Source: Flavivirga algicola
Lineage (GTDB): Bacteria; Bacteroidota; Bacteroidia; Flavobacteriales; Flavobacteriaceae
Reading direction: 5' to 3'
Assembly (NCBI RefSeq): GCF_012910715.1
Contig: NZ_JABBHF010000007.1
Span: forward strand, 253,001 to 317,000
DNA length: 64,000 bases
Shown here: in pieces, positions 19,754-55,668 of the stretch
Position numbering within the stretch: the stretch's first letter is position 1
How the letters are laid out: each line of letters starts with the position of its first letter
Program-made: the position numbers and the translations under genes
Notes under the pieces: generated by a model
What the model saw: the letters and a program-made list of their open reading frames with translations, nothing else
What the model was told of the DNA's origin: nothing
Database searches by the model: none

Positions 19754-19789
19754 AAAAGCGCTTCAATTTCTAATAATTGAAGCGCTTTT
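19754..19789 (+). terminator. Strong terminator after the iron-sulfur fusion gene
   Basis: A perfect 15-bp stem (19754-19768 with 19775-19789) built around AGCGCTT with a 6-base loop and terminal T residues lies 20 bases after the stop codon. It could work in both directions. Confidence 0.9.
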
Positions 19790-37349: not shown

Positions 37350-37384
37350 GAAAGCCTCGTTTTTATATTAAAAACGAGGCTTTC
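37350..37384. terminator. Bidirectional terminator between aqpZ and the anti-sigma gene
   Basis: GAAAGCCTCGTTTTTA at 37350 pairs with the AAAAACGAGGCTTTC arm that ends at 37384. The long stem with A/T flanks serves the two convergent genes. Confidence 0.85.
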
Positions 37385-54406: not shown

Positions 54407-55177
54407 ATGGCGACTTATAATAAAAGAGGATATAAACCTAAAAATAAAGTAGAGAAAGAACAAAACATAGAAGTAGACTCTACAACGGCAGAAGTTTTTA
54501 ATACCCTTGACGAAACGGCTTCTAAAACAGAAGCATTTGTAGCGAAGAACCAAAAATATATTTATATAGTAATAGGGCTTGTTGCTGTTATTGTTTTAGG
54601 GTCTTTAGGATATAAGGAATTTATAGCAAAGCCTAAACAAATATCTGCAATGAACGATATGTTTCAGGCTCAAAAATATTTTGATCAGGCTGTTACTGGA
54701 GTGGAAAAAGACTCCTTGTATAATTTGGCCTTAAATGGAGGAGAAGGGAAATTTGGAATGCTGGATATTATTGAAGAGTACAGTGGAACACCTTCTGCTA
54801 ATCTAGCAAGTTATTATGCTGGTACTGCCTATTTAAGATTGAAAGATTATAAAAAGGCCGTTGAGCATTTAGAGAATTTTAAAAGTGATGATGAAATATT
54901 AGCACCTATAGCAAAAGGTAATATAGGTGACGCTTTTGTACAATTAAACCAGCAAGAAGAAGCTCTAGGATTTTATGAAGAAGCGGCCGAAATGCGCAAT
55001 AACGAATATACAACACCTATGTATTTGTTTAAAGCAGGTGCTATTGCCTTAGATTTAGGAAAAGCAGATAAGGCTCTGGGGTATTTTGAGAGAATTAAAG
55101 AAGACTTCCCTAGTTCAAATGAAGCTTCTAAAGTGGATGTGTTTATAGGTAAAGCGCAAGTATTGGCTGGCAAATAG
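54407..55177 (+). CDS. Membrane-anchored TPR protein (YfgM-like)
   Basis: The 256-residue protein has a charged cytoplasmic N-terminus (about 45 residues), one transmembrane helix (about 51-70, YIYIVIGLVAVIVLGSLGY) and a periplasmic TPR domain with recognisable units (ASYYAGTAYLRLKDYKKAVEHL, GNIGDAFVQLNQQEEALGFYEEA, KAGAIALDLGKADKALGYFERI). It resembles YfgM, which works with SecYEG and periplasmic chaperones, but that function is only inferred. It is followed 5 bases later by ribH. Confidence 0.88.
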   Translation: MATYNKRGYKPKNKVEKEQNIEVDSTTAEVFNTLDETASKTEAFVAKNQKYIYIVIGLVAVIVLGSLGYKEFIAKPKQISAMNDMFQAQKYFDQAVTGVEKDSLYNLALNGGEGKFGMLDIIEEYSGTPSANLASYYAGTAYLRLKDYKKAVEHLENFKSDDEILAPIAKGNIGDAFVQLNQQEEALGFYEEAAEMRNNEYTTPMYLFKAGAIALDLGKADKALGYFERIKEDFPSSNEASKVDVFIGKAQVLAGK

Positions 55178-55182
55178 ATAAT

Positions 55183-55668
55183 ATGGCTACGGAAAATAAA
55201 AACTTATCCGATTACGATAAAACAACAATCCCAAACGCGAGTAAATTTCGGTTTGGGATTGTTGTTTCAGAATGGAATGATACCATTACAGAGGGACTCT
55301 ATGACGGTGCTTATAATACTTTGGTAGAAAATGGCGTACAGCCAAATAACATTATTAGATGGAACGTTCCAGGTAGTTATGAGCTTATCTATGGCTGTAA
55401 AAAAATGCAAGAGCAGATGGTCAATGCTGTTATTGCAGTAGGAAGTGTTATACAGGGAGAAACGAAACATTTCGATTTTGTTTGTGAAGCTGTATCTCAA
55501 GGAATAAAAGATTTAAATGTTACTCGAGAAACGCCCGTAATATTTTGTGTGCTTACAGATAATAATATGCAACAAGCCGTAGAGCGTTCTGGCGGTAAGC
55601 ATGGTAATAAAGGAACTGAAGCTGCTGTTGCTGCTATTAAGATGGCCGAATTGCGTGAAAATAGTTAG
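55183..55668 (+). CDS. ribH: 6,7-dimethyl-8-ribityllumazine synthase
   Basis: The 161-residue enzyme performs the penultimate step of riboflavin synthesis. Expected features are FRFGIVVSEWNDTITEGLYDGA, the VPGSYELIYG loop, AVGSVIQGETKHFDFVCEAV with the catalytic His, and VIFCVLTDNNMQQA. It is co-transcribed with the TPR membrane protein gene (5-base gap), not with other rib genes. Codons 13-29 contain a perfect 17-bp inverted repeat, which is unusual. No FMN riboswitch fits in front of it. Confidence 0.97.
   Translation: MATENKNLSDYDKTTIPNASKFRFGIVVSEWNDTITEGLYDGAYNTLVENGVQPNNIIRWNVPGSYELIYGCKKMQEQMVNAVIAVGSVIQGETKHFDFVCEAVSQGIKDLNVTRETPVIFCVLTDNNMQQAVERSGGKHGNKGTEAAVAAIKMAELRENS
55220..55267 (+). 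repeat. Perfect 17-bp inverted repeat inside ribH
   Basis: Arm 55220-55236 (AAACAACAATCCCAAAC) is the exact reverse complement of arm 55251-55267, separated by 14 bases. It lies 38 bases into the coding sequence and would fold into a very stable hairpin in the mRNA. Confidence 0.9.

Follow-up and report, generated by a model that had tools for sequence, protein, structure and literature searches.

The closest known system to the element reported here is a set of protective structures embedded in the coding sequences of differentially decaying E. coli operons (PMC5927463). In the available text of that study, 17 of 26 operon structures fall within the coding sequence of the downstream gene, 107 ± 56 nt into it, wobble conservation is enhanced over the structures, and gene pairs separated by intrinsic terminators were excluded. 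As far as the accessible text of PMC7815308 describes them, intrinsic terminators, including premature terminators internal to open reading frames, share with our element a G-C-rich stem, an A-rich 5' side and a U-rich 3' side, a combination that is also seen in several intergenic palindromes of the same genome. The FMN riboswitch (RF00050) is alike in that it would control riboflavin genes. The element described below lies within ribH, the second gene of a tightly spaced pair. It differs from the E. coli cases, so far as these are given in the available part of PMC5927463, in belonging to another phylum, in being family-wide and partly present beyond the family, in its conserved U-rich tail and its alternative registers, and in being known here from sequence alone; it differs from intrinsic terminators (PMC7815308, same restriction) in that its tail is interrupted by G, it lies in a coding region and its sequence is strongly conserved. 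Among the matches listed in a search of open PMC texts, the ribH element was not found in titles or abstract openings. Transcripts of Flavobacterium psychrophilum have been mapped (PMC9723704), and the available main text of that paper contains neither "ribH" nor "riboflavin".

The gene pair and the parts of the hairpin are as follows; coordinates are those of the window, by which we mean the whole stretch of 64,000 nucleotides that was analysed.

54407..55177, + strand: TPR-repeat gene, first of the pair (open reading frame; Pfam TPR families)
55183..55668, + strand: ribH, 6,7-dimethyl-8-ribityllumazine synthase, 161 aa (PF00885, E 5.4e-52, residues 22-158; TIGR00114)
55220..55236, + strand: 5' arm, codons 13-18 (K-T-T-I-P-N), A-rich at its outer end (inverted repeat, fold, covariation)
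55237, + strand: bulged G, first base of the Ala19 codon (fold)
55238..55241, + strand: inner stem, 5' side, CGAG (fold, covariation analysis)
55242..55246, + strand: apical loop, 5 nt (fold)
55247..55250, + strand: inner stem, 3' side, TTCG (fold, covariation analysis)
55251..55267, + strand: 3' arm, Arg23 wobble base followed by F-G-I-V-V (inverted repeat, fold, covariation)
55258..55268, + strand: U-rich tail ATTGTTGTTTC, after the G-C core (T at the wobble bases of V27 and V28)

The first-pass annotation had reported a perfect 17-bp inverted repeat with a 14-base spacer, 38 bases into ribH, and had judged it unlikely to occur by chance. The two arms (55220-55236 and 55251-55267, bases 38-85 of ribH) are indeed 100% complementary over 17 of 17 pairs with 14 nt between them, and the repeat is more than had been claimed for it: the spacer folds further, with G55237 bulged and four pairs (CGAG/TTCG) leaving a loop of 5 nt. 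That inner pairing, the U-rich tail and the link to the upstream gene had all been missed, and conservation in the family lay beyond that annotation's view. A segment of 151 nt folds at -43.3 kcal/mol (z -4.82), and none of 200 shuffles folds equally well. The window was surveyed together with another 400 kb of the same genome (464 kb in all) for perfect inverted repeats with arms of at least 15 and gaps of 3-30; twelve were found, and only the one in ribH lies wholly within an open reading frame of 150 or more amino acids. In the same 464 kb the ribH hairpin has the lowest folding energy among 21435 coding windows of 57 nt, and, among the windows that fold at -14 kcal/mol or lower, the only ones for which z against synonymous recodings was computed, just three have a more extreme value than its -5.84. 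The shuffles, the inverted-repeat survey and the rank in folding energy together reject a chance origin. The site is not a copy of a repeated element, being the only one in the genome (a further match at E 1 or better is to the opposite strand of this site). Rfam 15 gave no family above its gathering score at the site, and the sub-threshold matches, which were of microRNA type only, were dismissed since such models fit any long stem.

The FMN riboswitch was also considered as the identity of the element and rejected: RF00050 has no match above its gathering score in the window, and none was found in 40 relatives' genomes of the order, while a control search recovered it in 7 of 14 known genomes. 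The earlier statement that no such riboswitch is possible stands as to the result, but the argument given for it, that ribH starts five bases after the upstream gene, is weak because a riboswitch might lie upstream of the operon as a whole. A single stem-loop is in any case no FMN aptamer. Riboflavin synthesis in this group may be controlled by means other than the FMN riboswitch.

The relatives' set comprised 205 ribH loci, reduced to 201 distinct genes by removing one with a gap in the element and three repeats. A hairpin was called, from an alignment anchored at F24, when at least 17 of 21 pairs were present and the fold was in the best 5% of synonymous recodings. By this rule it is present in 143 of the 201, which is no unbiased frequency because the loci came from similarity-ranked lists, mostly one or a few per genus. 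Mean folding energy is -22.0 kcal/mol, against -10.4 in the synonymous null. For identities of 74% and above, all 106 ribH genes have folds within the best 5% of recodings, and below 74% this share drops with distance (18/25, 18/24, 14/30 and 2/16). In 40 sampled hairpin genes the mean z is -4.06 at the hairpin and between -0.73 and +0.28 in other ribH windows. The stem is built with codons that are rare elsewhere in the same genes: GCG at a frequency of 0.78 against 0.09 in the rest of the genes, CGG at 0.68 against 0.05, GGG at 0.78 against 0.11 and ATC at 0.92 against 0.17. Third codon positions within the structure show conservation, and different species retain the hairpin. A covariance model (R1) finds the element on the coding strand in all of the closest 80 named ribH loci, at 51.6 bits or more, and at a single site in the window's genome. 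Across the class 44 of 395 genomes match it at E 0.01 or better, many of them weakly, and the ribH hairpin is not general in the class; even in the same family, 42 of 178 genes have neither the hairpin nor an intergenic terminator.

The wobble bases of codons 13-18 pair with the wobble bases of codons 23-28, so silent changes are able to compensate for one another. Covariation was measured on 76 dereplicated sequences, which were picked as hairpin-bearing. In these, 93.0% of cells are paired, seven pairs have changed on both sides, and none of 500 shuffles is as high on any of five measures; the swap seen most often is from AAC/CGG to AAT/CGA. On a tree built from RibH and the TPR protein (129 rows), the wobble pair of N18 and R23 has co-changed at least 15 times, where 1350 simulations gave 4.4 co-changes on average and never more than 10. 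This branch simulation was used since a sign test is underpowered (median p 0.125 on well-supported branches, a small sample). The alignment of ribH among relatives that the first-pass annotation had proposed as a check reveals, then, both retained pairing and compensatory synonymous changes. Its view that synonymous codon choice builds the structure, a selected one, is strongly supported by the rare codons, the synonymous null, the covariation and the tree.

These data also bear on two explanations that would deprive the pairing of a role in RNA. The pairing might be a functionless coincidence of the conserved protein motifs TIPN and FGIVV and of shared ancestry, and it is true that the protein segment is conserved and that codon positions 1 and 2 of T-T-I-P-N and F-G-I-V-V pair whatever codon is used, which accounts for about two thirds of the pairs. 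The remaining pairs, at wobble positions, are where codon bias, the synonymous null, covariation on the tree and re-pairing in other lineages all speak against it. As a sole explanation it is refuted by the synonymous null, the covariation and the tree simulation, and we give it almost no credence. The amino acids of the 5' arm themselves follow the hairpin: among 242 relatives (ribH codons 14-24), I16 has a frequency of 0.95 with the hairpin and 0.32 without, and N18 of 0.82 and 0.31, as if RNA pairing constrained these residues, a relation that is confounded by descent. The repeat might instead act in the DNA, as the target of a dimeric DNA-binding protein or as a cruciform, and a nearly perfect palindrome kept over a family would suit such a role. 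Among wobble-wobble pairs, G-U combinations number 37 (59 expected) and A-C combinations 4 (26 expected). G-U is tolerated far more than A-C, which indicates that selection has acted on RNA of one strand, the mRNA (coding) strand; in addition the bulge shifts the half sites out of register, and there is one site in the genome. A role in the DNA is accordingly very improbable, if a shade less so than coincidence. Comparison among relatives shows selection, as read from these substitution patterns, on the hairpin and its U-rich tail as coding-strand RNA.

Outside the family the hairpin is in part rebuilt. In another family of the same class (f48), two genomes retain this hairpin, four of its pairs having changed on both sides. 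Further lineages combine the same 3' arm (the codons around F-G-I) with different 5' codons, as in AATGCC...GGCATT or, in a second re-paired case, CCCGATGC...GCATCGGG, and the tail ATTGTTGTTT is common to these alternatively paired lineages. A few ribH hairpins below the threshold are in the same register with fewer pairs. In the window's genome the U-rich tail is mostly paired, its partner being the A-rich 5' end. The wobble base of V27 is T in 142 of 144 hairpin genes and that of V28 in 144 of 144; V27 has its wobble T in 30 of the 32 genes in which it is unpaired in the fold (expected frequency 0.46), so the tail seems to be kept for itself.

Sixty further loci extended this comparison; seven lacked the anchor pattern, leaving 53 usable, and removal of identical segments gave a total of 242. 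Twenty of the 60 (L221-L240) were picked with the covariance model and form a sample skewed in its favour, and among the other 33 usable ones seven have a fold in the best 5%. In genes below the 17-pair threshold a significant hairpin is present in 17 of 26 with the tail and in 16 of 81 without it (p 4e-5). The association holds when the model-chosen loci are left out (11/15 and 14/76, p 6e-5), and outside the family the figures are 14 of 23 and 7 of 39. In all, 28 of 109 below-threshold genes pass the 5% folding test; some of these, lacking the tail or having an unpaired Gly codon (4 of 28), may do so by chance.

Five nucleotides separate the end of the TPR gene (55177) from the start of ribH (55183), and ribH is preceded by a TPR-protein match at all 201 loci (239 of 242 in the wider set). 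At 140 of the 201 the distance from the end of the nearest upstream open reading frame to ribH is between -1 and +6 nt. We infer that the two genes share one transcript. Gene order as the cause of the hairpin's presence was rejected, as a TPR gene precedes ribH whether the hairpin is present or absent. We note that the TPR protein has a hydrophobic stretch near its N-terminus, as read from its sequence.

Eight genomes from seven other families lack the ribH hairpin and have a terminator-like hairpin with a T-run between the TPR gene and ribH (L199, L206, L207, L240, L251, L252, L268 and L270); in L199, L206 and L207 it nearly touches the ribH start codon. Such intergenic terminators occur in 0 of 152 hairpin genes and 8 of 90 others, a comparison in which the hairpin genes are mostly of one family, and outside the main family in 0 of 16 and 8 of 48. 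This is suggestive of mutual exclusion between the two kinds of structure, confounded as it is by family. The ribH stem itself is of the stable, G-C-rich type found in intrinsic terminators, and its tail has 7 T in 11 with a longest run of 3, interrupted by G. A terminator scan did not call it, which is weak evidence as its rule admits loops of 3-8 and no bulges. Given the G-broken tail and the absence of a call, any termination here would be partial. For comparison, in 36 convergent gaps of the same genome 6 of the 18 best hairpins have 7-9 T in 11, and the simple finder missed the ribH hairpin. Elsewhere in the window, perfect palindromes of 16 bp (37350-37384) and 15 bp (19754-19789) lie in intergenic gaps and are likely terminators.

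We consider it somewhat probable that the element is a cis-acting mRNA hairpin which serves the TPR-ribH operon junction from within the first ribH codons. The hairpin would form just after the TPR stop codon and so place a 3' end there in a share of the transcripts. This could come about if transcription is partly terminated at the U-rich tail, or if 3'-to-5' exonucleases are halted at the hairpin after decay of the ribH part, which would protect the 3' end of the TPR message; by either route the TPR message would be more abundant than the ribH message. Translation of ribH itself would melt the hairpin. Partial termination gains support from the tail and from the intergenic terminators found in other lineages, and the E. 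coli precedent, to the extent that the available text of PMC5927463 describes it, makes decay protection a known possibility. The choice between termination and a decay barrier is close to even, with termination slightly ahead for ribH because of the U-rich tail. Among the roles suggested in the first-pass annotation (slowing early translation, attenuation, protein binding), an attenuator-like one fits best as a candidate.

The hairpin might instead regulate ribH alone, through binding of a protein (RibH itself or another RNA-binding protein) or a small RNA, or by tuning ribosome progress or the use of the start site, so that translation follows the need for flavin. Within the family the stem sequence is more conserved than base pairing by itself would seem to require, as might be the case if a protein binds it; the element travels with ribH, beginning at about base 32-38 of the gene in the rows examined; and with no FMN riboswitch found in 40 relatives, that known means of control is missing from the pathway there. 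The stems of other lineages differ and have the same tail, though, and so provide no fixed binding sequence at the class level, and the terminator-like hairpins that precede the start codon in eight genomes do not fit a role at the ribosome. Regulation of this kind is unlikely, while being a reading to take seriously. More doubtful again is a wider reading in which the ribH hairpin would be a regulated attenuator answering the flavin state or RibH, and would belong to a class of coding-embedded junction hairpins by which tight operons fix their gene ratios and which even influence the choice of amino acids in the downstream protein. For the junction hairpin that we favour, the structure is well established by comparison and the mode of action is a prediction.

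A vitamin gene here carries a second, RNA-level message in its code, one that is kept family-wide and rebuilt with other pairs in some relatives. The hairpin offers an entry to riboflavin control in a group in which no FMN riboswitch was detected (40 genomes). If it sets the TPR:ribH ratio, such elements are discoverable by comparative genomics alone, and coding-embedded operon stoichiometry extends beyond the enterobacteria covered in the available text of PMC5927463.

Other junctions in the same genome give a similar signal. Windows with z of -4 or less make up 10 of 980 at junctions and 34 of 26337 in gene bodies, which is only a lead since the windows overlap and the open reading frame starts were set mechanically, some of them wrongly. 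Three genes of contig C12 have early-coding hairpins. In a presumed glycosyltransferase-like gene (L282:16484-17524, + strand) the hairpin beats all 100 recodings in 13 of 25 loci; its letters are almost unchanged in 11 of 12 congeneric genomes and in two further genera, and more distant relatives have lost it. In what we take to be a glyoxalase-like gene (L286:11744-12118, + strand), which overlaps its upstream gene, it beats all 100 recodings in 13 of 23 loci and is kept with sequence changes in relatives. A presumably cytochrome-oxidase-like gene (L297:18550-19998, + strand) has a weaker one, with 3 of 30 loci beating all recodings and 20 of 30 in the best 5%. The L282 and L286 hairpins have no U-rich tail, which for that group favours decay or translation over termination. 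On the same contig, the likely start of a gene that we take to be exosortase-like (L291:15689-16321, - strand) overlaps the upstream gene, and its first codons contain a perfect 14-bp inverted repeat followed by a T-rich stretch.
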